Below, one piece after another: positions 17,735 to 41,974 of a stretch of 50,399 nt of DNA. Position numbers and translations under genes: made by a program. The stretch is from positions 1 to 50,399 of the forward strand of contig JAJZOZ010000004.1 in NCBI GenBank assembly GCA_021811405.1. Direction: 5' to 3'. The stretch's first letter is position 1, and every line of letters begins with the position of its first letter. The notes under the pieces were generated by a model. That model had not been told where the DNA came from. It saw only the letters and a list, made by a program, of their open reading frames with translations, and searched no databases. The DNA comes from a bacterium (GTDB lineage Bacteria > Elusimicrobiota > Elusimicrobia > Elusimicrobiales > UBA9959).

Positions 17735-19060
17735 CTAGAACCTGGCCCAGAGCTTCCTGGCCAGTTCGCAGGACTTGCGGGAGACCTCTTCCTCGTCGAT
17801 ATCCAGCTTCAGCTTCTTGCCTTCCATCAGCACGCGGCCGCCGCAGATAGTGGTGTCCACCGCGCTCTGGCTGACGCCGAAGATCAGGTGGCCCGCGAAG
17901 TTGGAGGCGTCCATAGGCGTGGGGGGGATATAGTCGATTATCGCGAGGTCGGCCGCGAAGCCGGCTTTCAGCTCGCCGACGTCCTTGAAGTAGCGGTTCG
18001 CTATCCTGGCGTTGTTGACCAAGAGGGCGTTCGCCGTCTCCATGAAGCCGCAGGCCGGGTCGCGTTTGAGGTGCTGCAGCCACAGGCCGCAGCGCACCTC
18101 TTCCAGCATGTTCACGGTCATCGCGTCGGTGCCGAGGCCCACGAGCACGCCGCCGTCGGTGAGGGCCGTGATGTCCGCTATGCCTACCGCGTTGTTGGCG
18201 TTGGACTGGGGGTTATGCACCACGGCGGTGCCGGTCTCCTTGAGGATCTCGACTTCCTTCTCGCTGACGTGCACGCAGTGGGCGGCTATGGACTTGCGGC
18301 CGAGTATGCCGAAGTCCCGCAGGCGCTCGACGACGCGCATCTTGTGGTGCGACTCGCAGTGCAGCTGGTCGGAGGTGGATTCGGCGGTGTGGATATGGAA
18401 GCCCACGCCCATCTTGTGGCCGCGGTAGGCGGCTTCCTCGAGCGTCTCGTCGCCGATGGTGAAGGAAGCGTGCAGGCCGAACAGCGCCTTCACCTGGTTG
18501 TCGTCGCGGGCGTTGCAGGCCGCTATGAAGGCCGAGTTCTCGTCCAGGCCCTCTTTCGCCTTCTCCTTGCCGTCGCGGTCGGAGACCTCGTAGGCCAGGC
18601 TCGCGCGCAGGCCGGTCCCGCGCACGGCCTTCTCTATGGCGGCCAGCGAGCCGGTTATCGCGAAGGGGCTCGCGTGATGGTCTATTATCGTGGTGGTGCC
18701 CTTGCGCACCGCGTTGATCAGCGGGATGACCGCGCTGTAGTAGGAGTCGTCGTTGGTGAGCTTCTTGTCCAGCCTCCACCAGAGGTTGTTGAGTATCTCG
18801 ACGAAGTTCTTGGAGGGGTCCGCCTTGCCGAGGCCGCGCGCGAACGTGCTGTAGAAGTGCATGTGCGCGTTGATGAAGCCGGGCATCACCAGCTTGCCCG
18901 CGGCGTCTATGACCTTGGAGTATTTCCCGCGGAGGCTCTTCTGCGGGGCTATCTTCTTGATCAGTCCGTCCTCTATGAGCAGCGCGTGGCCGTACAGGAC
19001 CCTGTTCTTCTCTCCCAGCGTGGCTATGATGCCGTTCTTTATGAGTATGCTTTTTGCCAT
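17735..19060 (-). CDS. ssnA: SsnA-type amidohydrolase
   Basis: The 441-residue amidohydrolase has the first metal site in GFINAHMHFYSTFARGLG, later His residues (GFHIHTAEST, AAHCVHVSEKE) and a metal Asp in GLGTDAMTVNM. The early AHMHFYSTFARG pattern and the NNLWWRLDKKL segment match SsnA, a protein repeatedly found with molybdenum hydroxylases and in purine-degradation gene clusters. Its reaction is not firmly established; relatives deaminate or hydrolyse ring nitrogen compounds. It is the second gene of a two-gene operon after the DPD-like flavoenzyme, 34 bases downstream, and ends at a strong terminator. Confidence 0.87.
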   Translation of the reverse strand: MAKSILIKNGIIATLGEKNRVLYGHALLIEDGLIKKIAPQKSLRGKYSKVIDAAGKLVMPGFINAHMHFYSTFARGLGKADPSKNFVEILNNLWWRLDKKLTNDDSYYSAVIPLINAVRKGTTTIIDHHASPFAITGSLAAIEKAVRGTGLRASLAYEVSDRDGKEKAKEGLDENSAFIAACNARDDNQVKALFGLHASFTIGDETLEEAAYRGHKMGVGFHIHTAESTSDQLHCESHHKMRVVERLRDFGILGRKSIAAHCVHVSEKEVEILKETGTAVVHNPQSNANNAVGIADITALTDGGVLVGLGTDAMTVNMLEEVRCGLWLQHLKRDPACGFMETANALLVNNARIANRYFKDVGELKAGFAADLAIIDYIPPTPMDASNFAGHLIFGVSQSAVDTTICGGRVLMEGKKLKLDIDEEEVSRKSCELARKLWARF

Positions 19061-19094
19061 GGTGTTCCTGTTCGTAGGATCGTACTCCGCCGCG

Positions 19095-21545
19095 CTATTC
19101 CGGGCAGACCTTCAGCTCGGCCGGGGTGCGCTTGCGCATCTTCAGCGCCCCGGAGAAGCACTTCTTCACGCAAAGCGAGCAGCCTACGCACTTCGAGGCG
19201 TCGAACTGCGGCACCTTCTGCCCGTCCAGCTTCACCGCCAGGTAGCCGCAGCGCTCGCAGTTGCCGCAGTGGCGGCAGAGCTCCGCGTCCGCCGCGGGGA
19301 TGTTCTTGACCGGCGTGAGGTCGGGGAAGTCGGTGACCGGCTTGGGCAGCGCGCAGCCGATAAAGTCGCCGACCGACTTATAGCCCTTCTCCTCCAGCAG
19401 GTGGCTGAGCCCGCTCTCCAGCTCGCCGATGATGTGGAAGCCATACTTCATCACTATGGTGCAGAACTGCACGGACTTCGCGCCCAGGGCGAGGAAATGG
19501 GCCGCCGCCTTGTAGTCCATCGGCCCGCCGTTGCCGGAGATAGGCACGCCGAGGTTCACGGCCTTGGAGATGGTCAGGTTGCTGATGGGCGCCACGCCTT
19601 CGCCGCTCATGCCCACTATCATGCCCTCTTCCCAGTTGCCCTTGCCGGAGAGGCGCTTGCGGAAGGCCAGCGCCGGGAAGGAGTTGGCCAGCGTGATGCC
19701 GGCCTTCTTGTGCGGGTATTTCGCGTAGACCTGCTTTATCGCGTTGACCACCTGCCAGATCGAAGTGACGGCGCCGGTCAGCTTGAAGAGCTTCGGGATC
19801 TCCGGGTCGGAGACTTCCATGACCCAGTCTATGATCTTGGCCGCGAGCTCCGGGTCCTGCGAGACGATGTCGCCCTTGGTGCCGTCGCCGCCCTGCGGGC
19901 AGGACAGTGAGTATTCTATCGCCATAGCGCCGGCCTTCTCGAGCTTCAGCGTGTTGCCCTGCCAGCCCTTCCTGTCGAACTCGTCGTTGCCGGTCACCGG
20001 GCCGCCGGTGGAGGCCGCGGTCAGGCGGTCGGGGTATTCCTTAACGAGCCGCGCCACTTCCTTGCAGACGCGGTCGAGCGGGTGGCCGCTGACGTTGTCG
20101 GAGTTGCCGTAGGTGTCCTGGCTGAAGGTCACCATGTACTCCGACGGTATGTGTATGTGCAGGCCGTCGAAGGCGGTCTTCATCACTACGCCCGGCCAGC
20201 CGGCCTCGTAGGCCTGCTTCACCTGCTCGTAACCGTCGGAGTGGGGGGAGGCCGAGATGATGAAGGGCGACTTAAGCTTGCGGCCGAAGAAGTCGGTGGT
20301 CAGGTCCACGGGCTTGAGCTCGCGGCCGGCCAGTATCACGTGGCTCTTCTTGTGGTCCTTGAAGACGGGCAGCTTTTCGCCCCGTATGAAGGCGTGGGCC
20401 TGCATGGCGGCGTTCTTTCCGGAGGCGGCGCCCTCCACCACGGTGGCGGCGCCGTCCTTGCAGTCTCCGGCGAAGAAGACCCCCTTCTCGCCCTTGTCCT
20501 TGAAGACCGGGATGTTCTTGATGGCCAGCACGGTGAACTGTATATCGGTGCGCGCCTGTTCCGTGCCGGGGACGTCCCTGGACTTGTCGTCCAGCCGCAC
20601 TATCTTTATGCCGCCGCCCTTCAGTATGCCGGTGATGCGGCTGCGGGCGTTGATGTTGACGCCGGCCTTCAGTATGTCCCGGAGCTCGTGCGCGGGGAGC
20701 TGTATGTCGCCTATGTTCTTGCGGGTGAAGATCTCCGCCCTGGCCGCGCCGAGCCGGAGCGCCTTCATGGCGCAGTCGGCCGCAACGGCGCCGCCGCCTA
20801 TCACGGCCACGTTCCTGCCCTTCACCCTGTACTTGGAGGTGTTGCGCAGGTACTCGAGGCCCTCCACGCCGAGAGCCTCGTTCTCTATGTTGAGCTTCAG
20901 CTGCTCCTCTACGCCGGCGGTAACTACCACCGCGTCGTACTTCTTCATCAGGGCGGAGGGTTCCTTGACGGACGTGCCGGTCTTTATCGAAATGTCGCCG
21001 AGGGTCTTGATCCATTCTATCTCGGTGCGCAGCACTTCCTTCGGGAAGCGCGCGTCGGGTATCAGGTTGCAGGCGCCGCCCGCCCTCTTGTCCTTTTCGA
21101 GAATGTCGACCTTGTAGCCCAGCTGCGCCAGCGTGCCGGCCGCGGCGAAACCCGCCGGGCCCGCGCCGACTACCGCCACTTTCCCGCCGTTCGGCTTCGC
21201 CTTCCTGAACTCTGGCATCACGCCGAGCTCTTTCGCCTTCTGCACGACGGTGGCCTGCACGGGGGGGATATTGATGGGATTATCGAAGAGCCGGCGGGAG
21301 CAGGCCTTCACGCAGAACCAGTCGGGGCAGACCGCGCCGCAGACGCCGCCGAAGGTGTTGTGGCCCATGATCAGCGCGGCGCTGCGCTTGAAGTCGCCCT
21401 TCTCCATCTGGCGCACGGCCATGATGAAGTCGGCGGGGGAGCAGTCGGCCGGGCAGGCCTTCTGGCAGGGCTTGTCCTCGCAGTAGAGGCAGCGCTCCGC
21501 CTCGCTCTTGAGCTGTGCGTCGGTGAGAAAGGTGATCTTCTTCAT
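19095..21545 (-). CDS. Dihydropyrimidine-dehydrogenase-like fused iron-sulfur flavoenzyme
   Basis: The 816-residue chain has the full domain order of single-chain mammalian DPD. First is an N-terminal Cys-rich Fe-S domain (Cys19, 22, 27, 31, 69, 73, 78, 82). FAD (GAGPAG at 127-132) and NAD(P) (VIGGGAVAADCA) domains follow. An FMN TIM barrel starts near 413, and a C-terminal two-cluster ferredoxin has Cys757/760/763/766 and Cys786/789/792/796. Gln97 in NPINIPPVQ lines up with the unusual Gln cluster ligand of DPD. The general-acid Cys is kept (Cys549 in LSCPQG). The residue matching the pyrimidine-binding Asn in LNLSCP is Ser546, and another Asn position also differs. It probably reduces or oxidises a related ring using NAD(P)H. 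It is co-transcribed with ssnA. E. coli YgfK is a possible distant relative, but I recall its domain order as different. Confidence 0.88.
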   Translation of the reverse strand: MKKITFLTDAQLKSEAERCLYCEDKPCQKACPADCSPADFIMAVRQMEKGDFKRSAALIMGHNTFGGVCGAVCPDWFCVKACSRRLFDNPINIPPVQATVVQKAKELGVMPEFRKAKPNGGKVAVVGAGPAGFAAAGTLAQLGYKVDILEKDKRAGGACNLIPDARFPKEVLRTEIEWIKTLGDISIKTGTSVKEPSALMKKYDAVVVTAGVEEQLKLNIENEALGVEGLEYLRNTSKYRVKGRNVAVIGGGAVAADCAMKALRLGAARAEIFTRKNIGDIQLPAHELRDILKAGVNINARSRITGILKGGGIKIVRLDDKSRDVPGTEQARTDIQFTVLAIKNIPVFKDKGEKGVFFAGDCKDGAATVVEGAASGKNAAMQAHAFIRGEKLPVFKDHKKSHVILAGRELKPVDLTTDFFGRKLKSPFIISASPHSDGYEQVKQAYEAGWPGVVMKTAFDGLHIHIPSEYMVTFSQDTYGNSDNVSGHPLDRVCKEVARLVKEYPDRLTAASTGGPVTGNDEFDRKGWQGNTLKLEKAGAMAIEYSLSCPQGGDGTKGDIVSQDPELAAKIIDWVMEVSDPEIPKLFKLTGAVTSIWQVVNAIKQVYAKYPHKKAGITLANSFPALAFRKRLSGKGNWEEGMIVGMSGEGVAPISNLTISKAVNLGVPISGNGGPMDYKAAAHFLALGAKSVQFCTIVMKYGFHIIGELESGLSHLLEEKGYKSVGDFIGCALPKPVTDFPDLTPVKNIPAADAELCRHCGNCERCGYLAVKLDGQKVPQFDASKCVGCSLCVKKCFSGALKMRKRTPAELKVCPE

Positions 21546-21593
21546 GTCGTAACCTCGCGGCGGCGAAGATGTCGCTGATTAGATTTTATAATT

Positions 21594-24164
21594 TTATGCG
21601 CGCTTATGCTTGATGCGCGCCTTCAGCCGGAAATGCTCGCAGTCGTAGAAGAAGCGGCGGAACACCAGGAAGCGCCAGCTTCCCTTCTTTACTTCCTCGT
21701 CGGCCCTGTCGGAGAGCTCCGCGATCTCCGAGGTATCCGGCAGGGCGATGATATGGGAATGCCAGCACGGCAGATGGGAGGGTTCGTCCAGCCTCAGGTC
21801 TATCACCCCTCCCTGCCTTCTGTACCAGAGCCCTTCCATGTTGAGCTGAGCCTCGAAGGAGTCGGGGGAAAGCTGGCGCAGCGGAGAGTTGAAGAAGACT
21901 TCGGCTTCGTAGGGCCCGTATTCCGCACTGACACGTCCTATCTCCGCGCGGAGTATGCCGCCACGCGAGTCGCTGAAAGAGGAGAGCGGAAGGGAGGGCA
22001 GGTAGAATTTTCTGGAGTCCATGGCCGTTTTGCGGGTCTCGGTGAGGAACATCCAGGCGCGGACGGCCCGCGGCCCGGCTTCGGGCAGGAAGATGTATAC
22101 GGTGGAGGAGGGGATGCCGGTGCGCTTTACGGCCGAGGAGGAGTTGGTCAGCAGTATGTCGCGCGCCGCGCGATAGTTGAATTCCTGGCATTCCTGCGGC
22201 AGCGAGGGGAAGGGCGGAGAATACGACGACGAGCCTTCTATCAGCGCGGCCAGCTCTTCCCTGCTTTTGAAATTTATGTCCGGGGAAAGGTTCCTCGCTA
22301 TGCCCAGGTGCCGCAGCGCCTCCTTCTTGTCGCCGCGGAGGTCGTAGAGCCTGCTGAGGCGGTAGTAGCCCCGCGCGACGATATCGTCCTGGCCGGCGCC
22401 GAAGGATTTGCGCAGCTCCACGCAGGCCGTCCTGTATTCGCGGCGCATGATGGCCAGCTCCGCCCGGAGGTTTATGAGGAATTCGTTGCCCGCGGTAAGG
22501 CGCGAGGCTTCCGCCAGGGCTTTCTCGGCTTCGTCGAGGCGGCCGGTCTCGATGAGCCCTTCTATCAGCGCGAAGCGCAGCATGACGTTCCCGGGGTGGT
22601 GCCGGATCTCCTCCGTAGTCAGCGCCTTCCACGAGTCCCTCCGGCCCAGCCACGCGTCGCGATAGGCTTTGACGAACCACGCGAACAGCGTGGCGCCCGG
22701 GATGGCTTTCGCTATCCTCTCCGCGTAGGCGGCGGCCTTCTCCTCGTCCCCTGCGTACATCCTGGCGCGGGCGCAGAGCGCCAGGAGGGCCGGGTCGTCC
22801 GCGGCCCCTCCCAGGTAGTGCTCCATTTTCCTGAGCCAGTCCCGGCTTCCCGAGAAAAACTCGGTCAAGAGCCCGGCGTAAAGCCTGACTGCCGGGTCCG
22901 AGGCGTCGGCGGCGAGCCGGCGCATACGCCCCGGCGCTTTCCTGTGCAGGGAAGTCTCCCCCATGTGGGAATAGAGGACGGCCAGCATGGCGGTGGCGTC
23001 CACGGAATACGGATCTTTGTTCAGCGCGTCGATGACAAGGCCGTGGGCCTGGTCTATGCCGAAGTCGGTGAAGTAGGCCAGCGCCGCCTCGCCCGCCAGC
23101 CGCGACGCCTCCCGTCGGTTCCCCTCGGGGACGGGGCCAGCGCCCCGCGGCTTTTTCGCCTCCTCCGTGGAAGATTTCAGCATGCCGCGGATGCCGTCCA
23201 CTATCTGGGTCTTTATCCCCTTGGGTCTCGCCGCCAGGCGTATGGCGTCGGCCAGCTCCCTGGCGTCTTTGAAGCGGGCGGACGGCTTCTTCTCGAGGCA
23301 GCGCATTATGACGGCGCCCAGCGCGGCGGAGAGTTCCGGGTTAAGCTTCGACGGGGGCTGGCAGCGGTCCTGGGTGACGGCCCTTATAAAGGCGGCCGTA
23401 TTTTCGCCCTTGAAGGGATGCTCCAGGGTCATCAGCTCGTAGAGCATGGTGCCGAGGCTGTAGATGTCGGAAGCCGGAGAGGCCTCCCTGTTGGCGAAGG
23501 TCTCGGGTGCCATGTAGCGCAGCGTTCCCAGCATCGGCTGGCCGGTGGTGATGTCGGAAGAGTCGGAGAACTTTGCCAGGCCGAAGTCGGCGAGCTTGGC
23601 GGGCCCTTTGCGGGGGATGAGGATATTGGAAGGCTTTATGTCGCGGTGCAGGATGCCGAGCGAGTGTGCCTCATAAAGGGCGTCCGCCACGCCGGCCAGC
23701 AGCGCCGCTACACGGCTCTCGTAGTCAGGGTCGGTCAGCGGGAGGCCTGTGAGCGGCCGCAGGAAATACGGCAGTTCCTCGTCCTCAGGGGACAGGGGTT
23801 TCAGGTAGCCGTATTTTTTCAGCTCCTCCACGTCCCCGATCGCCGCTATGGAGCGGGCCAGTTCGAGAAAAGCGAACAGCGGCTTGCCGTCCACGTACTC
23901 CATCGCGAGGTACGGCAGGCCCTCGTGCTCGCCGAAGGAATAGACCTTTATTATGCCGGGGTGGTCGCAGCGGGCTATGGCGGCCGCCTCCCGCAGGAAG
24001 CGGCGTCGGCTCTGGGGGGTGGCCTGCTCCGGCAGCACCATCTTCAGGGCGGCGTCGCGCTGCAGCACTTTGTCGTGGGCGCGATATACAACGCCCATCC
24101 CGCCGCGGCCGAGCTCGCCGGTTATCTTGAGGTTCCCTAGTTCGTCCCCTTCTTTTATCATCAC
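21594..24164 (-). CDS. Ser/Thr protein kinase with C-terminal TPR region
   Basis: The 856-residue protein has an N-terminal Hanks-type kinase domain (about 10-310): glycine loop [16 protein letters not shown], catalytic Lys41, HRDIKPSN with Asp175, DFG in LADFGLAKF and an APE-type motif YMAPETF. An insert rich in Leu and Glu (about 90-130) separates the two lobes. The C-terminal half has TPR-like helices (about 360-640), then a region of about 200 residues I do not recognise. There is no membrane helix, so it is cytoplasmic. It is divergent from the amidohydrolase at 24219 and shares a 54-base promoter region with it. The target is unknown. A second in-frame ATG directly follows the first. 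Confidence 0.92.
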
Positions 24165-24218: not shown

Positions 24219-25586
24219 ATGAAAACACTGCTGATAAAGAACGCCGAACTGCTGGCCACGATGGACGACGCCGGCCGCGAGATAAAGGGCGGCGACGTTT
24301 ATATCGAGGGCCCCGAGATAAAGAAGGTGGGGAAGGGCCTCAAGGTGAAGGCCGATCAGGTCATCGACGCGAAGGGCTGCGTGGTGATGCCGGGCATGGT
24401 GAACACGCACCACCACCTTTACCAGACGCTGACGCGCAACCTGCCGAAGGTGCAGGACGCGGAGCTGTTCGACTGGCTCGTGTACCTCTACGACATCTGG
24501 AAGCACGTGAACCCGGAGGCTATTTACGCGAGCACCCAGGCGGGCTTGGGCGAGCTGCTGCTGACAGGCTGCACGACGAGCTCGGACCACCTCTACCTTT
24601 TCCCGAAGAAGGACAGCGGCTTCTTCATAGACACGCAGATAGAGGCCGCGCGCGAGCTGGGGATCCGCTTCACGGCCACGCGCGGCTCGATGTCGCGCGG
24701 CCGCAGCAACGGCGGCCTGCCGCCGGACTCCGTGGTGCAGAAAGAGGACTTCATCCTGAAGGACTGCGAGCGGCTGATCAACAAGTTCCACGGCCGGGAG
24801 AAGTTCGCGATGACGCGCGTGGCGATGGCGCCGTGCTCGCCGTTCTCGGTGACCACCGAGCTGCTGGAGATCACCGCCGAGATGGCGAAAAAATGGGGCG
24901 TGCGCATGCATACCCACCTCGCCGAGACGAAGGACGAGGAAGCCTTCTGCCGGAAGCTTTTCAAAATGCGCCCGCTCGAATATATGGAGAGCGTAGGCTG
25001 GGTGGAAGAGGGCAACGCCTGGTTCGCGCACTGCGTCTATATCAACGAGGCCGAGGCGAAGAAGATGGGGCGCACGCATACCGGCGTAGCCCACTGCCCG
25101 TGCTCCAACCTGAGGCTCGGCTCCGGCATAGCGCCGATCCCGATGTTCCTCAAGCACAACGTGCCGGTCGGCCTCGGCGTGGACGGCAGCGCCTCCAACG
25201 ACTCTTCCGACATGCTCGGCGAGGCGCGCCAGTGCATGCTGGTGCACCGCCTCGGCGACATCCACGCGATGCCGGCGCGCAAGGCGCTGGAGCTGGCCAC
25301 CCGCGGCGGCGCCGCGGTGCTCGGCCGCACTGATATCGGCAGCATAGAGCCCGGCAAGGCCGCCGACCTCGCGATCTTCGACGTCAGCGGCCTCGATTAC
25401 ATCGGTTCCAAATCCGACCCGCTGGCCTCGCTGCTTTTCTGCGGCGCCTCGCACAGGACCAAGTACACCGTAGTCAACGGCAAAATCGTGGTGAAGAACG
25501 GGCGCCTCGCGCTGGTGGACGAGCGCCGCGTGACGGAGCGCGCCACGAAGGCCGCGCAGTCGCTTTACCGCAAGGCAGGGGTCTGA
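24219..25586 (+). CDS. Amidohydrolase of the 8-oxoguanine deaminase / TrzN-AtzB type
   Basis: The 455-residue protein has the amidohydrolase pattern: GMVNTHHHLYQTLTRNL (first metal His pair), MHTHLAETKDEEAF, AHCVYINEAEAKK and GLGVDGSASNDSSDMLGE with the metal Asp. The HHHLYQTLTR and GSASNDSS signatures are those of the group containing 8-oxoguanine deaminase, hydroxyatrazine hydrolases and related aminohydrolases, which remove amino groups from purine or triazine rings. Natural substrates in such clusters are usually oxidised purines; the exact one here is inferred. It heads a plus-strand run that continues with phosphofructokinase and molybdenum hydroxylase accessory genes. Confidence 0.85.
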   Translation: MKTLLIKNAELLATMDDAGREIKGGDVYIEGPEIKKVGKGLKVKADQVIDAKGCVVMPGMVNTHHHLYQTLTRNLPKVQDAELFDWLVYLYDIWKHVNPEAIYASTQAGLGELLLTGCTTSSDHLYLFPKKDSGFFIDTQIEAARELGIRFTATRGSMSRGRSNGGLPPDSVVQKEDFILKDCERLINKFHGREKFAMTRVAMAPCSPFSVTTELLEITAEMAKKWGVRMHTHLAETKDEEAFCRKLFKMRPLEYMESVGWVEEGNAWFAHCVYINEAEAKKMGRTHTGVAHCPCSNLRLGSGIAPIPMFLKHNVPVGLGVDGSASNDSSDMLGEARQCMLVHRLGDIHAMPARKALELATRGGAAVLGRTDIGSIEPGKAADLAIFDVSGLDYIGSKSDPLASLLFCGASHRTKYTVVNGKIVVKNGRLALVDERRVTERATKAAQSLYRKAGV

Positions 25587-25596: not shown

Positions 25597-26712
25597 ATGG
25601 CGAATAACGGCAAGGCGATAAAGAAGATAGCCATCAGCACCGGCGGCGGCGACGCGCCCGGGCTGAACGCGGTCATACGGGCGGTGGTGATAGCCGCCCG
25701 CAACCGCGGCTGGGAAGTGCGCGGCATCAGGGACGGCTACAACGGCCTGCTGAACCCCGGCGACTACCCGGACGGCGGGCTGATGCACCTGCACCGGCAT
25801 AACGTGCGCGGCATCACGCATCTCGGCGGCACTATACTCGGCACTACCAACAAGGGCAACCCGCTCAAGTACCCCACCCAGGCCCGCAACGGCAAGTGGT
25901 ATGAGAAGGACCGTACGCGCGAGCTGCTGGCGGCTTTCCGCAAGCACAAGATAGACGCTCTGGTCGCCATCGGCGGGGACGGCTCGCTGGCAATAGCCAA
26001 TGCGCTCTCGGAAAAAGGCCTGCGCGTCATCGGCGTGCCGAAGACCATAGACAACGACCTCGAGAAGACCGTGGTCACCTTCGGCTTCGACAGCGCCGTC
26101 TCGTTCGCCACCGAATGCGTGGACAGACTGCATTCCACCGCCGAGGCGCACAGGCGCGTGATGGTAGTGGAGGTCATGGGCCGCTACGCCGGCTGGATAG
26201 CCATGAACGCGGGCGTTTCCGGCACCGCCGACGCTATACTGATGCCGGAGATCCCTTACGACATCAAGAAAGTGGCGTCGGCCATAAAGGCCCTGCAGCG
26301 GCAGAACAAGCATTTCGCCATTGTAGTGGTGGCCGAAGGGGCGAGGCCCGTGGACGGCAAGGTCTCCGTGGAGTTCAGGGAGCTCGGCCGCGCCGACAAG
26401 CTCGGCGGGGCAGGGGAAAGGGTGGCCAAGCAGCTGCAGGCGCTCACCGGAAAGGAATGCCGTACCGTGGTGCTGGGGCATCTGCAGCGCGGCGGCGGCC
26501 CGACCACGTTCGACAGGCTGCTTTCGCTGCGCTTCGGCGCGGCCGCGGTGCGAGCTCTCGACGAAGGGCGCTCAGGGATAATGGTGGCGCTGGACCCCCC
26601 CAAGGTGCTCTATGTGCCGCTCAGGGAGATCTCGGGCCGCATGAAGACGGTTCCGCTCGACTGCGACACGATGCTGACCGCCCGCGCGATGGGCATCAGC
26701 TTCGGGGATTGA
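25597..26712 (+). CDS. pfkA: 6-phosphofructokinase with mixed donor signature
   Basis: The 371-residue protein is a group A phosphofructokinase: STGGGDAPGLNAVIRA at the start, GGDGS with Gly129, PKTIDND with Lys149 and catalytic Asp152/Asp154, VVEVMGRYAGW and GHLQRGGGPTTFDR. Gly129 (Gly104 of the E. coli enzyme) points to ATP as phosphate donor. Lys149 (position 124) is usual in PPi-using enzymes. Such Gly/Lys forms are known and many use ATP, so ATP is the likelier donor. A strong ribosome site (GGGAGGGGG) precedes the start. It is an odd neighbour for purine-type genes. Confidence 0.93.
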   Translation: MANNGKAIKKIAISTGGGDAPGLNAVIRAVVIAARNRGWEVRGIRDGYNGLLNPGDYPDGGLMHLHRHNVRGITHLGGTILGTTNKGNPLKYPTQARNGKWYEKDRTRELLAAFRKHKIDALVAIGGDGSLAIANALSEKGLRVIGVPKTIDNDLEKTVVTFGFDSAVSFATECVDRLHSTAEAHRRVMVVEVMGRYAGWIAMNAGVSGTADAILMPEIPYDIKKVASAIKALQRQNKHFAIVVVAEGARPVDGKVSVEFRELGRADKLGGAGERVAKQLQALTGKECRTVVLGHLQRGGGPTTFDRLLSLRFGAAAVRALDEGRSGIMVALDPPKVLYVPLREISGRMKTVPLDCDTMLTARAMGISFGD

Positions 26713-32854: not shown

Positions 32855-34234
32855 ATGCTGAATTTCATCCTAAACAAGGAAGTCGTCCGGACCGAAGAGC
32901 GGCCGGGGATGGTCCTGCTGGAATTCATCCGCGACGTCAAGTGCCTCTCCGGCACCAAGGAAGCGTGCCGCGAAGGGGAATGCGGGGCCTGCACGGTGCT
33001 CGTGGGGCGCCGCAGGGCGGACGGTTCGGTTTCTTACAAGGCCTGCGCCTCCTGCCTGCTCCCCATCGGCGACGTCGACGGCTGCCACGTGGTAACCGTG
33101 GAGGGTCTTTCCGGCCCGGAACTGACGCTGGTACAGAGGCTTATCGTAGAGAACAGCGCCTCCCAGTGCGGCTTCTGCACCCCCGGCATAGTCCTTTCCC
33201 TTACCGGCTTCTGCCTGTGCGCGGAGAAGCTTTCCTTCGAAGCCGCCGTGGACGCGCTGGACGGCAATATCTGCCGCTGCACCGGCTACGCCGCCGTACG
33301 CGGCGCGGCGCGCGCGCTGTGCGAGCGGCTCTCGGCCGCGCCCTCCTCTCCGGAGAAGCGCCTGCCGGAACTTATAGCCGGCGGCGTGGTGCCGGAGTAT
33401 TTCAGGGATATCCCCGCGAGGCTGGCGGGTCTTGAGGCCGCGCCTTCCGCGGCCGGCAAGGACGCGGTCATCGTCGCCGGCGGCACCGACCTGTTCGTGC
33501 AGAAACCGGAACAGCTGCTGGACGGGGAACTCTGCTTCCTGTCGAAGCGCTCCGACCTGGATTATATACGGGAGGACGGCGGCGTCCTGCGCGTGGGCGG
33601 GGCCGTCACCATAGAGGATTTCCGCCTCTCGGCGCCGGTGAGGAAGCATTTCCCGGCCCTCGAGAAAGACCTGCTGCTCCATTCCTCCGCCATACTGCGC
33701 AACAAGGCCACGCTGGCCGGCAATATCGTCAACGCCTCCCCCATAGCCGACGCGGCCATAATACTGCTGGCGCTGGACGCCCGGCTCGTGATCGAAGGCG
33801 GGGGGAAGAAGCGCGAAGCGCCGCTCTCGAAGTTCTTCCTCGGCTACAGGAAGACCGGCCTCGCCTGCGGCGAGCTCGTCTGCGAGATAGTCATCCCTCT
33901 GCTGCCGCGAGGCGCCCGCTATAATTTCGAGAAGGTCTCCAACAGGACCACGCTGGATATCGCCGCGGTCAACACGGCCCTGCGCCTGACCGCCGGGCCG
34001 GACGGGGTTATCTCCGACCTGCGCGTCTCGGCCGGCGGCGTGGCCCCCGTGCCGCTGCTGCTGGACCTGGGGGCCTTCAAAGGCCGCAGGCCGGACGCGG
34101 AGACCGCCAAGGCCGCGGCCGCGGCCTCGGAAGCCGCCGTTAAACCCATAGACGATATCCGCGGCTCGGCGGAATACAAGAAACTGCTGCTGGGCCGGCT
34201 TGTGGAAGCGCATTTTAACGGGGAGGCCGCGTGA
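32855..34234 (+). CDS. xdhA: Xanthine-dehydrogenase-like [2Fe-2S]/FAD subunit
   Basis: The 459-residue protein fuses two electron-transfer domains of the xanthine dehydrogenase family. The N-terminal [2Fe-2S] pair has CREGECGACTVLV (plant-type cluster) and QCGFCTPGIV with NICRCTGY (second cluster). The FAD domain begins near 205 with VIVAGGTDLFV and continues with LRNKATLAGNIVNASPIADA. This two-subunit layout is like the Rhodobacter XdhA form. It passes electrons from the molybdenum subunit, encoded next with a 4-base GTGA overlap, to FAD and then to NAD+ or another acceptor. AAGGGA lies 9 bases before the ATG. Confidence 0.93.
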   Translation: MLNFILNKEVVRTEERPGMVLLEFIRDVKCLSGTKEACREGECGACTVLVGRRRADGSVSYKACASCLLPIGDVDGCHVVTVEGLSGPELTLVQRLIVENSASQCGFCTPGIVLSLTGFCLCAEKLSFEAAVDALDGNICRCTGYAAVRGAARALCERLSAAPSSPEKRLPELIAGGVVPEYFRDIPARLAGLEAAPSAAGKDAVIVAGGTDLFVQKPEQLLDGELCFLSKRSDLDYIREDGGVLRVGGAVTIEDFRLSAPVRKHFPALEKDLLLHSSAILRNKATLAGNIVNASPIADAAIILLALDARLVIEGGGKKREAPLSKFFLGYRKTGLACGELVCEIVIPLLPRGARYNFEKVSNRTTLDIAAVNTALRLTAGPDGVISDLRVSAGGVAPVPLLLDLGAFKGRRPDAETAKAAAAASEAAVKPIDDIRGSAEYKKLLLGRLVEAHFNGEAA

Positions 34235-36483
34235 AGAACGAAGACATGCTGATGCACGTGCGCGGCGCCTCGCTGTTCGTCGACGATATCCCGGCCCCGG
34301 GCTGCCTGCACGCCGTCCTTTTCACCTCCCCGGTGGCCCGCGGCAGGATCCGCTCCCTCGATATCTCCAAAGCGGCGGCTGCCCCCGGCGTGGCCGCCGT
34401 CTATACGCACAAGGACGTGCCGGGCCTGAACCAGGTGGGCCATATCCTGAAGGACCAGCCACTGCTGGCCGCGGACGGCGTGGAATACATCGGCCAGCCC
34501 ATCGCGCTGGTGGTTGCCGAAAGCCAGCGGGCAGCGCGCCGGGCCGCGAAGCTCGTAGAGGCGGACATCGAGCCTCTCGAGCCGGTGTTCAGCCCCCGCG
34601 AGGCCGCGGCCAAGGGCCATATACACGGTAAAAGACGGGAGCGGGTCACCGGCGACCCGTCCGCCGCCTTCGCGAAGTGCAAATACGTCGTCCGGGGCCG
34701 GCTCTCCAGCGGGCCGCAGGAACATTTCTACTTCGAGACCCAGCGCGCGCTGGCCGTGCCCGGCGAGCACGACACCATCAAGGTCTACGCCAGCGCGCAG
34801 TCGCCCGGGGCCTTCCATCACCACCTGGCGGAAGTGCTGGGCATCCCTATGCACAAGGTGGAGCTGGACATACGCCGGCTGGGCGGCGGCTTCGGCGGCA
34901 AGGAATCCACCGCCGTCTGGATAACCGCGCCCGCCCTGGCCGCCTTCCTGCTCAAGCGCCCGGTGAAGCTGGCCCTCTCGCGCTCGGAGGACATCGCCAC
35001 TACCGGCAAGCGCCACGCCTACGAGTACGACTACAAGCTGGGTCTGGACGCGGAGGGGAAGATCCTCGCCTACGAGGTGGACCTGTTCCAGCACGCCGGT
35101 GCCTGCGCGGACATCTCCCCCGCCGTGCTCGGCCGCTCCTTCCTGCACGTCTCCGGCTCCTACAATATCCCGAACCTCAGGGTTTCCGGCACCAGCTGCC
35201 GCACCAATGTCCCGCCGAACAACGCGTTCCGCGGCTTCGGCGTGCCGCAGGCCGTGTTCGCGATAGAAGCGGCCCTGACGCACGCCGCGGGGCTGATGGG
35301 CCTGCCGCCCGAGGAGCTCAAGCGCCGCAACCTGCTCAAGGACGGCGACACGCTGGCTTACGGAGTGAAGCTCGAGGGCGTGAACGCGGGCCGCTGCTGG
35401 GAGGTGCTGGATAAGCGGGCCGGCATAGCCGCCCGCCGCTCGGCCGTCGAAGAATATAACAGGACTCATGCCGGTACGAAGAAAGGCCTGGCCGTAGTTC
35501 CTGTCTGTTTCGGCATCTCTTTCGCGCAGACGGCCCTCAACCAGGCCGGCTCGCTCGTGAACATATACGTGGACGGCAGCGTCTCGGTCAGCACCGGCGC
35601 CGTCGAGATGGGCCAGGGCGTGAACGCCAAGATCCGCATAGTGGCGGCCCGGACCCTCGGCGTGCCGCTGGAAAGGGTGCGCGTGGATACCACCAATACC
35701 TCCCGCGTCCCGAACGCCTCGCCCACCTCCGCCAGCTCCGGCGCCGACCTCAACGGCATGGCCACGAAATACGCGTGCGGGCGCCTGCGGGAGCGCCTGC
35801 TCGAGTTCGCGGCCAGGCATCTCAGCTGCGACGACCCGGCGAAGGTCTCGATCCGCGACGGCGAGGTCTTCGTCGGGGAGAAGGATCCGGTCATGACCTG
35901 GGACAGGCTGGTGGCGGCCGCGCAGTGGGCGCGGGTGGACCTCTCCGAGCACGCTTTCTACGCCACCCCTAACCTCCATTACGACATGGAGACCGAGCTG
36001 GGCCGCCCCTTCGCGTATTACGCCTACGGAACCTCGCTGACCGAGGTGCTGCTGGACCGCTCCCGCGGCACTTATTCCATAGAGTCGGTGGACGTGGTGC
36101 AGGACGTGGGGGAGTCCCTCTCCCCGGAGATAGACCTGGGCCAGGTGCAGGGCGCGGTGGTGCAGGGCATAGGCTGGTCGGTGCTGGAACAGGTCAGGTA
36201 CGCGCCCGACGGCAGGGTTCTGACCGGGGCGAACTCCTATAAAGTGCCCGACATCAAGTTCGTGCCGGATAATTTCAACGTGACCCTGCTGAGGGATTCC
36301 TCCAACCCTTTCGCGGTCTGCAATTCCAAGGCGGTAGGCGAGCCGCCGCTTATACACGGGCTGGGCGCCTACCTGGCCCTAGCCGACGCGCTGCGCGCCG
36401 CCGGGGCAACCGGGCCGCTGCCGCCGCTGCCGCTGACGCCGGAGCGGACTTTCATGTGTCTTCACGGGAAGGCCTCTGAATGA
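34231..36483 (+). CDS. xdhB: Xanthine-dehydrogenase-like molybdenum subunit
   Basis: The 750-residue molybdopterin-binding subunit starts at GTG 34231. Family marks are the Moco segment GGGFGGKESTA, NNAFRGFGVPQAVFAIEAA with the substrate-side Arg loop of xanthine dehydrogenase, GAVEMGQGVNAKI and the catalytic Glu704 in SKAVGEPPLIHG. It hydroxylates a ring carbon next to nitrogen using water oxygen. The AFRGFG loop suggests a purine-like substrate, though related enzymes act on other heterocycles. It is followed with a 4-base overlap by a MoaD-type gene. Confidence 0.94.
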   Translation: MKNEDMLMHVRGASLFVDDIPAPGCLHAVLFTSPVARGRIRSLDISKAAAAPGVAAVYTHKDVPGLNQVGHILKDQPLLAADGVEYIGQPIALVVAESQRAARRAAKLVEADIEPLEPVFSPREAAAKGHIHGKRRERVTGDPSAAFAKCKYVVRGRLSSGPQEHFYFETQRALAVPGEHDTIKVYASAQSPGAFHHHLAEVLGIPMHKVELDIRRLGGGFGGKESTAVWITAPALAAFLLKRPVKLALSRSEDIATTGKRHAYEYDYKLGLDAEGKILAYEVDLFQHAGACADISPAVLGRSFLHVSGSYNIPNLRVSGTSCRTNVPPNNAFRGFGVPQAVFAIEAALTHAAGLMGLPPEELKRRNLLKDGDTLAYGVKLEGVNAGRCWEVLDKRAGIAARRSAVEEYNRTHAGTKKGLAVVPVCFGISFAQTALNQAGSLVNIYVDGSVSVSTGAVEMGQGVNAKIRIVAARTLGVPLERVRVDTTNTSRVPNASPTSASSGADLNGMATKYACGRLRERLLEFAARHLSCDDPAKVSIRDGEVFVGEKDPVMTWDRLVAAAQWARVDLSEHAFYATPNLHYDMETELGRPFAYYAYGTSLTEVLLDRSRGTYSIESVDVVQDVGESLSPEIDLGQVQGAVVQGIGWSVLEQVRYAPDGRVLTGANSYKVPDIKFVPDNFNVTLLRDSSNPFAVCNSKAVGEPPLIHGLGAYLALADALRAAGATGPLPPLPLTPERTFMCLHGKASE

Positions 36484-36725
36484 AGAAGAAGATCACGGTG
36501 CGCTACTTCGCCATGATGGGCGAGAAGCGCGGCACGCAGAACGAGACCTACGAGACCGAAGCCGGCACCGCCCGGCAGCTGCTGCACGAGCTGCAGGCCA
36601 ACAAGGCCCTGCCGCTGACCACCAACATCTCCAGGGCCGTGGTCAACGACAAGTTCGTGGACTGGGACTCCCCTATCAGCGACGGCGACCTGGTCATCCT
36701 GATGTCGCCGTTCTCCGGCGGCTGA
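36480..36725 (+). CDS. moaD: MoaD/ThiS-family sulfur carrier
   Basis: The 81-residue ubiquitin-like protein starts KKKITVRYFAMMGEKRG and ends SPFSGG, with the C-terminal Gly-Gly that becomes a thiocarboxylate. In molybdopterin synthase it gives sulfur to the pterin. The start overlaps the xdhB stop (ATGA), so it is made together with the hydroxylase. No MoaE or MoeB is in the window, so its partner lies elsewhere. Confidence 0.9.
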   Translation: MKKKITVRYFAMMGEKRGTQNETYETEAGTARQLLHELQANKALPLTTNISRAVVNDKFVDWDSPISDGDLVILMSPFSGG

Positions 36726-38114: not shown

Positions 38115-38212
38115 CTGAAAGGCCTACCGCTTGCCAGGCTGCTCTTTCCTGCATCTGGAGCGGCGTTTCGCGCTAAACGGAGCAATTATTGTGCCATTAT
38201 GGTTTTCGGGCT

Positions 38213-38250: not shown

Positions 38251-38268
38251 AGGTATGACCGCGGATGG

Positions 38269-40611
38269 TTACTTCTTCTCGGCGGCCTTTATCGCCTTCA
38301 GCACCTTCTCCGGCGTGAGGGGGAACTCGCGCAGGCGGGCTCCGGTGGCGTTGTACAGGGCGTTGGCGAAGACGGGGGCGGCCCCGTTGATGGAGACCTC
38401 CGACACGCTTTTGGCGCCGAAGGGCCCCGTCTCCTCGTAGGAGGGCACCAGGATCACCTTGACCGGCGGCCGGTCCCGCATCGAGTAGATGTGGTAGTCG
38501 GCGAAGGATGCGTTCTGCATGCGCCCCTTCGCGTCGAACAGGTACTCCTCCGTCAGCGCGTAGCTGATGCCGTTGAGCGTGCCGCCCTCTGTCTGGCCTT
38601 CGGCCAGCGCCGGGTTCACCGCCGTGCCGCAGTCTATCGTGGAGACGTAGTTCAGCACCTTGATGAAGCCGGTCCAGGTGTCCACCTCTATCTCCGCGAA
38701 GTGCGCGGCGAAGGGCGGCGGCGACTTCTTCGTGATGTGGGAGGCCGTGCCGATGATCTGGTACTGGTCCTTCTGGTACAGCGTGTACTTGGCTATGTCG
38801 CCGTAGCTGACCTTCTTCGTGCCGTCCTTGCTGCGCACGGCGGAGTCCTCGCAGTAGGCCTGCTCCGGCGGGATGCCCAACATCTCCGCGCCGCTCCTGA
38901 GTATCTGCCGCTTGGCGTCGGCCGCGGCCTTGCGCACGGCCTCGCCCGACAGGTACGTCGTGGACGAGGCGTAGGCGCCTACGTCGAAAGGGGTGACGTC
39001 GGTGTCGGAGGAGTAGACGATCATTTTATCCGTCGTGGTCTCCAGCTCCTCGGCCGCTATCTGCGCGAGCACCGTGTCCGAGCCGGTGCCGAGGTCGGTG
39101 GCGCCCATCAGCAGGTTGAACGAGCCGTCGTCGTTGATCTTGATCGAGGCCGCGCCCATGTCTATGTCCGGGATCGACGAGCCCTGCATCAGGCAGGCCA
39201 TGCCCATGCCGCGGCGGTAGCGGCCGGTCTTGCCGCGCCAGTCCTGGCGCCGCTCCCAGCCTATGGCCTTAGCGCCCTGCAGTATGCACTCGGCGAGCGC
39301 GTTGGACCCCACGGTCATAGGCGTGCCCTCGCGGCCCTCGCCCAGCGCCGCGAAGATGGGGGAGCCCTCGCCCTCGCGGATGTGGTTCATCTGGCGGAAC
39401 TTCATCGGGTCCATGCCGATGGCCTCGGCCATCTGGTCCATCAGGGACTCCATAGCGAAGAAGGCCTGCGTGGCGCCGAAGCCGCGGTACGCGCCGGCCA
39501 CGGGCAGGTTCGTGTAGTACGACTTGCCGTCGAACTTGATGTTGTCGCAGTGATATAAAGGCAGCACCTTGGAGCCGGCGCACGAGACCACGGTGAGGCC
39601 GTGGCCGCCGTAGGCGCCGGTGTTGTTGATGGCCTCCATGTCTATCGCTGTTATAGTGCCGTCCTTCTTTACGCCGGCCTTGAGGCGGATGCGGAACGGG
39701 TGGCGGGTGCGGCCGGTGCGGAAGGTCTCCTCCCGGTCGAACTGCCAGATCACCGCGCGGCCGGTGCGCAGCGCGAACATCGCGGTGACGTCGTCGAGCA
39801 GGATCTCCTGCTTGCAGCCGAAGCCGCCGCCGATACGGGGCTTGATGACCCGTATCTTCTGCACCGGCACGCCCAGCGTGCGCGCCACGATGCGGCGGCA
39901 GTGGAAAGGCACCTGCGTGGAGGTGGTGATCTCGATGCGGCCCGACGGGGCTATGCGCGCCATCGAGGTGTAGGGCTCGATGGGGCAGTGCTGGGCGTAG
40001 GGCGTCTCGAAGGTCTGGTCGAACCTGAAGTCGGCCTCCGCGTAGCCCTTCTCGAAGCTGCCGGCCTCGCAGGCTACGTGCGCGACGAGGTTCTTCTTCG
40101 GCTCGTAGGGGATAGGTATCGGCACGTGGGCTTCCGGCTCGTCGTGTATCACCGGGGCGTCCTTGGCCATGGCCTCGTCCAGCGAGAACACGGGCTTCAG
40201 TACCTCGTACTCCACCTTTATCGCCTCCAGGGCGGCCAGGGCCTGCTCCTCGGTTTCGGCCGCCACGGCGGCCACGCGGTCTCCCACGAAGCGCACCTTG
40301 GCGTCGAACATGAAGGTGTCATACGGCGACGGCTCCGGGAAGCCCTGGCCGGCTGTGCAGTGGGCTATGCGCGGCACGTTGCCGTGCCACAGCACGGCCT
40401 TGACTCCGGGCATCTTCTCGGCCTTGGAGACGTCGAGCTTCTTTATGCGGGCGTGCGCGTGCGGGCTCCACAGCATCTTTATTGCCAGCGCGTCCTTGGG
40501 GACGAAGTCGGCGACGTAGGAATCCTTGCCTAGCGCGAGCTGCAGCGCGTCTATCTTGGTGACGGAATGGTTGACCTGCTTGAGGTGCTTCGCCTTCTCG
40601 TGCCTGATCAT
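38269..40611 (-). CDS. CoxL-type molybdenum hydroxylase large subunit
   Basis: The 780-residue Moco subunit starts at ATG 40611 (MIRHEKAKHLKQVNHSV), overlapping the small-subunit stop by four bases. Marks include GGGFGCKQEILLDDV, the active-site loop GAYRGFGATQAFFAME and the catalytic Glu738 in GAKSVSEVSINGA. The loop lacks the Cys of true aerobic CO dehydrogenase (AYRCSFR), so it is not CoxL in function. It belongs to the broad group hydroxylating purines, nicotinate-like rings or aldehydes. Sequence motifs differ from the two-gene enzyme at 32855-36483, so substrates probably differ. It is the last gene of the operon FAD subunit, Fe-S subunit, Moco subunit. Confidence 0.93.
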   Translation of the reverse strand: MIRHEKAKHLKQVNHSVTKIDALQLALGKDSYVADFVPKDALAIKMLWSPHAHARIKKLDVSKAEKMPGVKAVLWHGNVPRIAHCTAGQGFPEPSPYDTFMFDAKVRFVGDRVAAVAAETEEQALAALEAIKVEYEVLKPVFSLDEAMAKDAPVIHDEPEAHVPIPIPYEPKKNLVAHVACEAGSFEKGYAEADFRFDQTFETPYAQHCPIEPYTSMARIAPSGRIEITTSTQVPFHCRRIVARTLGVPVQKIRVIKPRIGGGFGCKQEILLDDVTAMFALRTGRAVIWQFDREETFRTGRTRHPFRIRLKAGVKKDGTITAIDMEAINNTGAYGGHGLTVVSCAGSKVLPLYHCDNIKFDGKSYYTNLPVAGAYRGFGATQAFFAMESLMDQMAEAIGMDPMKFRQMNHIREGEGSPIFAALGEGREGTPMTVGSNALAECILQGAKAIGWERRQDWRGKTGRYRRGMGMACLMQGSSIPDIDMGAASIKINDDGSFNLLMGATDLGTGSDTVLAQIAAEELETTTDKMIVYSSDTDVTPFDVGAYASSTTYLSGEAVRKAAADAKRQILRSGAEMLGIPPEQAYCEDSAVRSKDGTKKVSYGDIAKYTLYQKDQYQIIGTASHITKKSPPPFAAHFAEIEVDTWTGFIKVLNYVSTIDCGTAVNPALAEGQTEGGTLNGISYALTEEYLFDAKGRMQNASFADYHIYSMRDRPPVKVILVPSYEETGPFGAKSVSEVSINGAAPVFANALYNATGARLREFPLTPEKVLKAIKAAEKK

Positions 40612-41129
40612 TTGCGGGCCCCCTTGGCGGTCTTCTTCGCGGGCTTCCCGCCCTCCGCCGCGCGCTTGTCCAGGGTTTTCCGGAGGGCCACCCAGATCTT
40701 CTCGTAGCCGGTGCAGCGGCACAGGTTGCCGTCCATGTATTCCTTCACGATCTCGTCCTCGAGGACCGTCTCGGTCTCCATCAGGGCGGTGGCGCTCATC
40801 ACCATGCCGGGGATGCAGTAGCCGCACTGCACCGCGCCGGCGGCGACCAGCTGCTTCTGGAACTCCGACGGATCGTCGAAGGTCCCGGCGCTCTCTATCG
40901 TGCGCACCTCGCGGCCCTCGGCCTGCATCGCGTAGAGCAGGCAGGCGTAGGTGGCGCGGCCGTCCACGAGCACGGTGCAGGCGCCGCACGTGCCCTGGCC
41001 GCAGCCGTACTTGGTGCCGCGGTAGCCCTCGCGGCGCAGCAGCGTGAGGAGCTTCTCGTCGGGGCGGGTCTCGAACGACCTCTTCTGCCCGTTGAGGGTG
41101 AAATTCACCGAGCGGGTATTCTTAGCCAT
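40608..41129 (-). CDS. CoxS-type [2Fe-2S] subunit
   Basis: The 173-residue iron-sulfur subunit has GCGQGTCGACTVLVDG for the plant-type cluster and QCGYCIPGMVM with NLCRCTGY for the second cluster. A Lys-rich tail (KPAKKTAKGARK) follows. It carries electrons from the Moco subunit to the FAD subunit. The start ATG 41129 overlaps the FAD subunit stop (TAATG). Confidence 0.95.
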   Translation of the reverse strand: MAKNTRSVNFTLNGQKRSFETRPDEKLLTLLRREGYRGTKYGCGQGTCGACTVLVDGRATYACLLYAMQAEGREVRTIESAGTFDDPSEFQKQLVAAGAVQCGYCIPGMVMSATALMETETVLEDEIVKEYMDGNLCRCTGYEKIWVALRKTLDKRAAEGGKPAKKTAKGARK

Positions 41130-41974
41130 TATTCGGCCCTCCCGCGGGCGAACTCCGCCGCCCGCTCCAGCGAGTCGAAGATCGAGACCTCGGCGAGCCG
41201 CCGGATATAGTCCGCGCTCATGCCCTCGCCGCCGGTCCACTTCGCGGCGCCGCCGCCGGCGGCCGCGGCCGCCCTGAAAACTTCCGCGCGAGCCTCTTTG
41301 CCGACCAGCGCTGCCTCGGCCGCCTTCAGGCGCTGCGGGAACGGAATGCCGCTGCCGGCCGCCACGCGGGCCGACTTTATGACGGCCCCGTCGAGCTCCA
41401 GCAGCGCCGCTACCGTGACCAGCGAGAAGGCCGCCGCGTTGCGCGAGGCTTTCACCGAGCCGAAGCCGTGGTGGGCCTTCAGCACCGGGATCTTCACGGC
41501 GGTGAGTAACTCCCCGTCCCTGAAGAGCCTGGCCGGCTGCGAGGAGAAATACTCGTCGGCGCCCATTTCCTTCTCCTTGCCGGAGTAGATGACCATGCGC
41601 GCGTTCATGGCCAGCAGCACCACCGGCAGGTCGGCCCACGGGAAGACGCGGGCGATATTGCCGCCTATGGTGGAGACGTTGCGCACCTGGTGCGTGGAGA
41701 TGCGCCTGCAGATCTCGTGCATGGCCCAGCGCGGGCCGCGGTAGCGCTGTATGTCCGAGAGCGGGGTGGCGGCGCCGATCTCGAAGAAGGCGCCTTTCTG
41801 CTTTATGTAGGACAGGCCCAGCCGCGTGATGTCCACAGCGGCGACCGGGGCCTTGCCCTGCATGAAATGCAGCGCGGTCCCGCCGGCGAGCGGCATGCCT
41901 TTGGGCCCCAGCGCGCGCAGCGCCTTGCGCGCTTCGGCGAGGGTGGAGGGGCGGATGAATTCGCACAGTTTCAT
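41129..41974 (-). CDS. CoxM-type FAD subunit
   Basis: The 281-residue flavin subunit has the FAD-binding LAGGTALHFMQGK near residue 30 and STIGGNIARVFPWADLP near 102, as in CoxM/XdhB-type proteins. It lacks the tyrosine-rich stretch (TIGG..CNASPAAD) seen in many xanthine dehydrogenases; instead the loop reads ARVFPWADLP. AAGGA lies 5 bases before the ATG. It is first in the operon, downstream of a promoter at 42014-42042. Confidence 0.92.
   Translation of the reverse strand: MKLCEFIRPSTLAEARKALRALGPKGMPLAGGTALHFMQGKAPVAAVDITRLGLSYIKQKGAFFEIGAATPLSDIQRYRGPRWAMHEICRRISTHQVRNVSTIGGNIARVFPWADLPVVLLAMNARMVIYSGKEKEMGADEYFSSQPARLFRDGELLTAVKIPVLKAHHGFGSVKASRNAAAFSLVTVAALLELDGAVIKSARVAAGSGIPFPQRLKAAEAALVGKEARAEVFRAAAAAGGGAAKWTGGEGMSADYIRRLAEVSIFDSLERAAEFARGRAE

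Follow-up and report, generated by a model that had tools for sequence, protein, structure and literature searches.

The window analysed here is a stretch of 50,399 nucleotides, contig JAJZOZ010000004.1 (our contig C11) of a 2.83-Mb metagenome-assembled genome (MAG) of the Elusimicrobiota in 234 contigs. Between 17.7 and 42.0 kb it holds genes for two amidohydrolases, a flavoenzyme of the dihydropyrimidine dehydrogenase (DPD) type and two molybdenum hydroxylases, which we call X1 and X2, together with cofactor maturation genes (Table 1). Among the matches listed from the genome collection, the closest ones with a name belong to Elusimicrobia bacteria, GWB2_63_16 and GWC2_64_44 among them. The identities and family assignments of the genes, their diagnostic residues, their conserved linkage and a set of named absences lead us to conclude that this cluster very likely encodes the first half of an oxygen-free, reductive route for degrading purines and uric acid, in a variant belonging to the Elusimicrobiota.

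Every named gene is an open frame without internal stops. The cluster starts with a left-going run of the kinase, DPD and ssnA genes, separated by 48 and 34 bases. Across 54 bases from it, a right-going run begins at the gene for an 8-oxoguanine deaminase (OxoGD) and continues through phosphofructokinase (PFK), mocA, a transporter, a cyclase, a 148-aa protein and xdhC, with gaps of 0 to 18 bases. A FlgO/CsgG-like gene follows xdhC, and then come the X1 small subunit, the X1 molybdenum subunit and moaD, each overlapping the next by 4 bases. A trypsin-like gene lies between moaD and the left-going X2 run of FAD, FeS and molybdenum genes (overlaps of 1 and 4 bases). An earlier note on this DNA had listed the amidohydrolases, the DPD-like enzyme, both hydroxylases, MocA, XdhC, MoaD and a transporter, with signalling genes and a phosphofructokinase mixed in; all of these are present as open frames, the signalling genes being those of the Ser/Thr kinase and the HAMP/cyclase protein.

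Table 1. Features of the cluster, with window positions, strand and the matches on which each assignment rests (bits against cut-off).
Feature	Position	Strand	Basis
ssnA, predicted aminohydrolase opening dihydro-yanthine	17735..19060	-	NF005540 533>444; TIGR03314 495>455.5 bits
DPD-type yanthine reductase (predicted)	19095..21545	-	Pfam order Fer4_20, FAD/NAD(P), DHO_dh, Fer4
Ser/Thr protein kinase with TPR repeats	21594..24164	-	PF00069
8-oxoguanine deaminase (OxoGD)	24219..25586	+	NF006055 636>532 bits
Phosphofructokinase (PFK)	25597..26712	+	PF00365; 10-base gap to preceding gene of run
MocA-like molybdenum cofactor cytidylyltransferase	26731..27327	+	TIGR03310 148 bits, below cut-off 186
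CitMHS-type transporter	27343..28575	+	PF03600
HAMP and adenylate/guanylate cyclase protein	28584..30071	+	PF00211, PF00672
148-aa protein	30072..30518	+	no family match
XdhC, hydroxylase maturation factor	30524..31333	+	PF13478, PF02625; below NF045664 and TIGR02964 cut-offs
X1 small subunit, 2Fe-2S and FAD	32855..34234	+	PF00111, PF01799, PF00941, PF03450; TIGR02963 320<467
X1 molybdenum subunit, canonical xanthine dehydrogenase type	34231..36483	+	TIGR02965 742<849.5; motifs kept
MoaD/ThiS-like protein, C-terminus GG	36480..36725	+	PF02597
X2 molybdenum subunit, predicted XdhD-type urate dehydroxylase	38269..40611	-	XdhD similarity, GEG insertion
X2 2Fe-2S subunit	40608..41129	-	43% to E. 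coli XdhC
X2 FAD subunit	41129..41974	-	PF00941, PF03450

In the published reductive uric acid pathway, the first steps belong to SsnA, a hydroxylase of the XdhD type and a DPD-like reductase, and SsnA has already been reported in Elusimicrobiota (PMC12507026, 2025). The earlier note had suggested that the genes may define an undescribed pathway that hydroxylates, deaminates and reduces one ring. It was right in its general idea that the cluster serves N-heterocycle (here purine) catabolism and brings along genes for cofactor maturation; the undescribed pathway gives way to the published one, and the hydroxylases are best read as consecutive purine steps. In the scheme we propose, X1 and OxoGD would convert hypoxanthine, xanthine, guanine or 8-oxoguanine to urate; X2 would remove the oxygen at position 6 of urate, yielding 2,8-dioxopurine (yanthine); the DPD-type flavoenzyme would reduce yanthine with NAD(P)H; and SsnA would then open the ring. 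The remaining steps, encoded elsewhere in the genome, would fall to a HyuA-like hydantoinase, YgeW with a carbamate kinase (ATP), and YgeY. A threonine-synthase-like pyridoxal phosphate (PLP) enzyme would stand in YgeX's place and turn 2,3-diaminopropionate into pyruvate and ammonia. MocA, XdhC and probably MoaD would provide for the cofactors of both hydroxylases, seemingly with no need for selenium. We infer the reactions from urate to pyruvate from the biochemistry of E. coli and C. difficile (PMC12507026), and the X1 and deaminase steps follow family knowledge and PMC6186785; guanine entry, the action of the DPD-type enzyme on yanthine and the reaction of the PLP enzyme are proposals of the present analysis alone. 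Published accounts disagree on the order of the ureido cleavages (PMC12990295). The pathway is a known one, and two points look new: a ThrC-like protein is the predicted last enzyme in place of YgeX, and the form is probably selenium-free, with an 8-oxoguanine deaminase as the likely entry for guanine.

SsnA, the marker of this pathway, exceeds two NCBIfam cut-offs (NF005540 and TIGR03314). The protein encoded beside it combines an N-terminal Fe-S/FAD/NAD(P) half, an FMN barrel and two 4Fe-4S clusters in one chain of 816 residues. By Pfam its domain order is that of animal DPD, and its halves match E. coli PreT and PreA at 31%. Pig DPD is the best match both in sequence and in fold; it was the top fold (TM 0.71 by query length) for an AlphaFold model with a mean pLDDT of 84 and weak loops, below 50 at residues 460-482 and 622-653 among others. 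The catalytic cysteine is kept (Cys549 for pig Cys671), as are the equivalents of pig Asn609 and Asn736. At the position of pig Asn668, a substrate-side residue in DPD, all 32 SsnA-linked DPDs compared, from many phyla, have serine; E. coli PreA and the true PreA of one genus member (G281) have asparagine. The protein thus belongs to a distinct family that travels with SsnA. Likeness to pig DPD and E. coli PreTA therefore extends to domain order, catalytic cysteine, Fe-S ligands and fold, and the differences from the pig enzyme lie in this serine and in length (1025 residues in pig). A plasmid search with the DPD-type protein returned only PreTA-type matches, all below 60% identity.

YgfK, the reductase of the E. 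coli cluster, was considered as the identity of this protein and rejected, because TIGR03315 gave 130 bits against 835 and the domain order is DPD-like; E. coli YgfK aligns to the FAD half only. In genome G124 a YgfK relative (40%) replaces the DPD in a cluster with SsnA, X1, X2, MocA and OxoGD, an exchange that supports the idea that the DPD-type enzyme performs YgfK's step. A competing explanation is that the cluster makes urate or salvages purines only, and that the DPD-type enzyme and SsnA act on a pyrimidine such as uracil. The nearest solved relatives of the DPD-type protein are indeed pyrimidine DPDs, whose catalytic Cys and two Asn it shares, and relatives of the 8-oxoguanine deaminase also use isocytosine (PMC6186785). 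Nevertheless, SsnA is above curated cut-offs of its own and is not a dihydropyrimidinase, the serine signature holds in all 32 SsnA-linked DPDs, at least one genus member (G281) keeps a separate true PreTA in a dihydropyrimidinase run, and the genome encodes orthologues of YgeY and YgeW. We regard this competing explanation as very unlikely. Dihydropyrimidinase runs over cut-off occur in two genus members (G281, locus L133, and G208, locus L134); that of G281 includes PreT and PreA and represents ordinary pyrimidine reduction.

The best solved relatives of the X1 molybdenum subunit are xanthine oxidoreductases (543 bits). In the alignment it retains the motifs GGFGGKE, AFRGFG and AVGEPP, the sites of the bovine active-site residues Glu802, Arg880 and Glu1261. 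The X2 molybdenum subunit is closer to E. coli XdhD (43% identity, 608 bits) than to XdhA (34%, 411 bits), and carries a GEG insertion with Glu606, as XdhD does. According to PMC12507026, XdhD has this glutamate and XdhA does not, and the insertion is connected with yanthine formation. Among 71 aligned hydroxylases the insertion was found in 20, namely X2, XdhD and 18 relatives at least 55% identical to X2; 50 have no Glu at this position, and one (L248) has the Glu without the motif. Hydroxylases beside SsnA in Cloacimonadota and Ignavibacteria are without the insertion, and SsnA clusters thus do not all carry the Glu606 type. One could also suppose that the two hydroxylases act on a non-purine N-heterocycle such as nicotinate, in an undescribed pathway, given that both lie under their equivalog cut-offs and that substrates are not safely read from sequence. 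We think this highly improbable: the xanthine dehydrogenase motifs are intact in X1, the XdhD insertion is retained in X2, and SsnA and an 8-oxoguanine deaminase are encoded alongside the two.

X2 has what looks like an overlong or shifted open frame, but a frameshift was rejected, because this is an intact FeS gene whose end overlaps the molybdenum gene by 4 bases. We also note a third molybdenum hydroxylase (FAD, FeS and molybdenum subunits) on contigs C53 (L119:1333-7241) and C49 (L121). It is without the Glu606 insertion and is flanked by a cyclase-family hydrolase and a nitrilase-family amidohydrolase. C53 and C49 hold near-duplicate copies, which points to mixed strains in the MAG.

To assess conservation, we fetched 33 neighbourhoods selected for holding SsnA: 14 from the genus, 8 from the rest of the family and 11 more distant. 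Many of these windows stop at contig ends, and presence counts are therefore lower bounds; X2 was counted at 50% identity or more and X1 at 60% or more. SsnA and the DPD-type gene lie less than 500 bases apart in 25 of the 33 and at most 4.7 kb apart in 30. In the genus, SsnA, DPD, OxoGD, MocA and the cyclase occur together in all 11 neighbourhoods of at least 30 kb, which is the co-occurrence that the earlier note had named as its own test. The same 11 windows contain PFK and XdhC in 10 cases, X2 in 9, the transporter in 8, X1 in 7 and the kinase in 6. Longer windows from the family's other genera hold X2 and XdhC in 5/6 each, PFK in 3/6 and the cyclase in 2/6; PFK, cyclase and XdhC were not found in the 11 distant neighbourhoods. 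OxoGD is present in 14/14 genus, 7/8 family and 3/11 distant neighbourhoods. In two Holophagaceae loci (L225 and L226) the core is seen by itself, with only DPD, SsnA, OxoGD and X2 in a row, and L225 has a PnrA-type (Bmp) ABC transporter nearby. Across the phylum, SsnA is above cut-off in 62 of 294 genomes, including 21 of the 23 sampled from the genus and 22 of the 24 from the family's other genera.

The best solved relative of OxoGD is 3hpa (500 bits), followed by 7ww2, titled 8-oxoguanine deaminase (495 bits). Guanine deaminase was above cut-off in none of 32 genus genomes, and the 8-oxoguanine deaminase is hence the likely entry point for guanine. In the same 32 genomes SelD was never above cut-off, with weak matches in all of them (at most 61 bits against 125). 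YqeB (TIGR03309) had no match in our own genome, the one genome searched. These results uphold the earlier note's description of a selenium-type cluster without selD or YqeB, the latter for the own genome. Over 249 residues, the XdhC gene product shares 36.5% identity with the first half of E. coli YqeB. The SelD counts suggest that X1 and X2 are probably selenium-free. SsnA, YgeY, YgeW and MocA/YgfJ have been described as clustering with selenium-dependent hydroxylases, the first three as their satellites (Haft and Self 2008, PMC2276186), and this list is what could recommend a selenium-dependent hydroxylase cluster with an overlooked selD. With SelD over cut-off in no genus genome and YqeB unmatched in the own one, such a cluster is refuted unless a divergent SelD exists, and we give it hardly any weight. 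The presence of SsnA, YgeY and YgeW without a recognisable SelD fits urate breakdown rather than selenium handling.

Genes for the downstream half lie on other contigs. YgeY, on contig C58, scores 564 bits (cut-off 321.5) and is 54% identical to E. coli YgeY; YgeW, on C154, scores 676 bits (cut-off 453) at 66% identity to its E. coli counterpart. The two contigs have an exact 127-base end in common, inside or beside ygeY, and in relatives ygeY and ygeW are on a single contig. Next at this locus come a carbamate kinase relative (34% to YqeA; TIGR00746 260 bits, below 358) and the PLP protein (C154:7325-8563). Across the 32 genus genomes, YgeY is above cut-off in 30 and D-hydantoinase in two. 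YgeX is above cut-off in none, and a true YgeX in the genus was accordingly rejected. Scanning the genus ygeY/ygeW loci (L118, L123-L129, L135-L137) by eye, we saw many genes with radical SAM-like N-termini (CxxxCxxC).

The PLP protein is 23% identical to E. coli YgeX, and its nearest solved sequences and top folds are threonine synthases. The threonine synthase model TIGR00260 has a match over cut-off in 30 of the 32 genus genomes; 29 of the 30 matches are, to judge from identity and the length of the open frame, the PLP protein, and G296 has a longer form only. In all 24 of the 29 genomes that were inspected, it adjoins the carbamate kinase. Homoserine dehydrogenase was found in none of the 32 genomes and in 14/14 controls, and homoserine kinase was above cut-off in none, with weak matches in 31. 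Linkage in other phyla was followed through the best 80 named SsnA loci, and hence in the nearest relatives only; 28 of the 80 were classed as Elusimicrobiota and set apart, on the strength of their titles or, in the case of three bins, of an identity of at least 84%. The other 52 include YgeY in 31, a PLP-protein relative in 30 and both in 28, and in 22 of these 28 the two genes are at most 86 bases apart. A Cloacimonadota homologue, for example, lies at L269:12526-13683. YgeX outscored the PLP-protein relative at none of the 80 loci, and the PLP protein is near SsnA in none of the 28 Elusimicrobiota loci.

The motifs of the PLP protein set it apart from threonine synthase. All 12 short ThrC proteins of the phylum have ASTGNTS, NP(Y/F)RIxGQKT and GNAG; at the corresponding places the PLP protein has ASTGNA, xEGKK and GDG. 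Of 77 aligned PLP rows, 73 have ASxGNA, EGKK and GDG (two of them being the same own-genome protein), and the remaining four comprise YgeX, a single ThrC and two proteins of a third type. The Thr and Arg that are changed belong to the phosphate site of threonine synthase. A tree resolves separate clades for ThrC (12 proteins, SH-aLRT support 100), for the third type (5 proteins, 100) and for the cluster-linked proteins of other phyla (30 proteins, 98), and the Elusimicrobiota proteins fall between them; YgeX is in a separate clade. The ThrC rows are the 12 phylum proteins with all three motifs, among which L277 was NCBIfam-scored (330 against 167). The tree was built by a quick method with SH-aLRT as its only support, and the long ThrC and third-type branches meet, which makes the branching order unsure; we used the clade separation alone.

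A rival explanation for this protein is an ordinary threonine synthase, with some other enzyme cleaving diaminopropionate. It is favoured by scores over two threonine synthase cut-offs (TIGR00260 235>167, NF006050 308>303 bits), by the nearest solved structures, and by relatives at 54-58% identity in Elusimicrobium-type genomes (family f2), which sit in unrelated neighbourhoods and mostly without strong SsnA. Four f2 neighbourhoods that we viewed had no pathway genes near the relative, which indicates that the PLP family is wider than the pathway. The missing homoserine enzymes, the constant carbamate kinase neighbour, the proximity of YgeY in other phyla and motifs unlike those of all 12 short threonine synthases speak against it, and we consider it rather unlikely. 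We favour the view that the PLP protein is here a diaminopropionate lyase, probably a second such family, replacing YgeX. A search of the open literature gave no paper pairing "diaminopropionate ammonia-lyase" with "threonine synthase", most subscription papers being outside its scope. PMC3686733 names threonine synthase along with ygeY and ygeW, and PMC12507026 identified YgeX through the broad Pfam family PF00291, which would not distinguish it from the ThrC-like protein.

Several observations weigh against a reductive urate pathway at this locus. SsnA is just 32% identical to E. coli SsnA, and X1, MocA and XdhC are all below NCBIfam cut-offs. The AYxG(F/Y)G motif contains Arg in X2 and Gln in E. 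coli XdhD. None of the 6 longer windows of the family's other genera contains X1 at the threshold of 60% identity, and 2 of the 33 neighbourhoods (G009 and G039) have no DPD beside SsnA. The pathway genes are split over three loci in the own genome, and the HyuA-like protein, on C53, is unlinked to the other pathway genes and scores 330 bits against a cut-off of 393; in 27 of the 32 genus genomes such a match is likewise below cut-off, at 330-389 bits. The threonine synthase scores of the PLP protein, given above, count here as well, and the MAG has a completeness of 88% and a contamination of 6.5%.

The reference system is the E. coli cluster (xdhD-ygfM, ygfK, ssnA, hyuA, ygeW, yqeA, ygeY, ygeX; PMC12507026). 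In common with it are SsnA, an XdhD-type hydroxylase, a flavin reductase, YgeW, carbamate kinase, YgeY, MocA and a probable HyuA. Here, however, a DPD-type enzyme stands for YgfK, a ThrC-like protein for YgeX (both fold type II PLP enzymes) and an 8-oxoguanine deaminase for guanine deaminase; SelD is below cut-off and YqeB unmatched, three loci are involved, the FeS subunit of X2 has a separate gene, and PFK, cyclase and kinase are included. The deaminase, known from 3hpa and NF006055 and matched over a curated cut-off, is here placed in a urate-reduction cluster. The UacX/UacY variant of C. difficile likewise has a DHO_dh-type reductase partnering SsnA. In that variant, as PMC12507026 describes it, UacX is without an FAD domain and XdhD without an FAD subunit; both are present here, which makes NAD(P)H the likely donor. 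C. difficile has UacY where our genome has YgeW; the comparison with UacX follows its published description.

A 2025 commentary (PMC12990295) asks whether the reductive urate pathway is an ancient innovation or arose recently as an adaptation to the gut, and favours the second view. Among the best 80 SsnA loci listed are MAGs titled groundwater, fens, sediments and digesters, and the loci span Elusimicrobiota, Ignavibacteria, Cloacimonadota, Acidobacteria/Holophagaceae and others. SsnA in environmental MAGs argues for environmental spread and makes the question of origin testable by phylogeny. We hold it an even question whether several mostly uncultured phyla share a selenium-free route with an NAD(P)H-dependent DPD-type reductase and SsnA, guanine entry through OxoGD and, for the last step, a new diaminopropionate lyase family that arose beside threonine synthase and carries its annotation; if they do, the pathway would be old and environmental, not a gut invention. 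Should the ThrC-like protein be a diaminopropionate lyase, the label "threonine synthase" would be wrong and predicted amino acid needs would be affected.

Two further proteins in the window lie outside these assignments. A 482-aa protein (42115-43563) has no Pfam or NCBIfam match and was found in 0/33 SsnA neighbourhoods. The FlgO/CsgG-like protein between xdhC and X1 (31466-32746) is of an outer membrane type and has a relative in 10 of the 14 genus windows.

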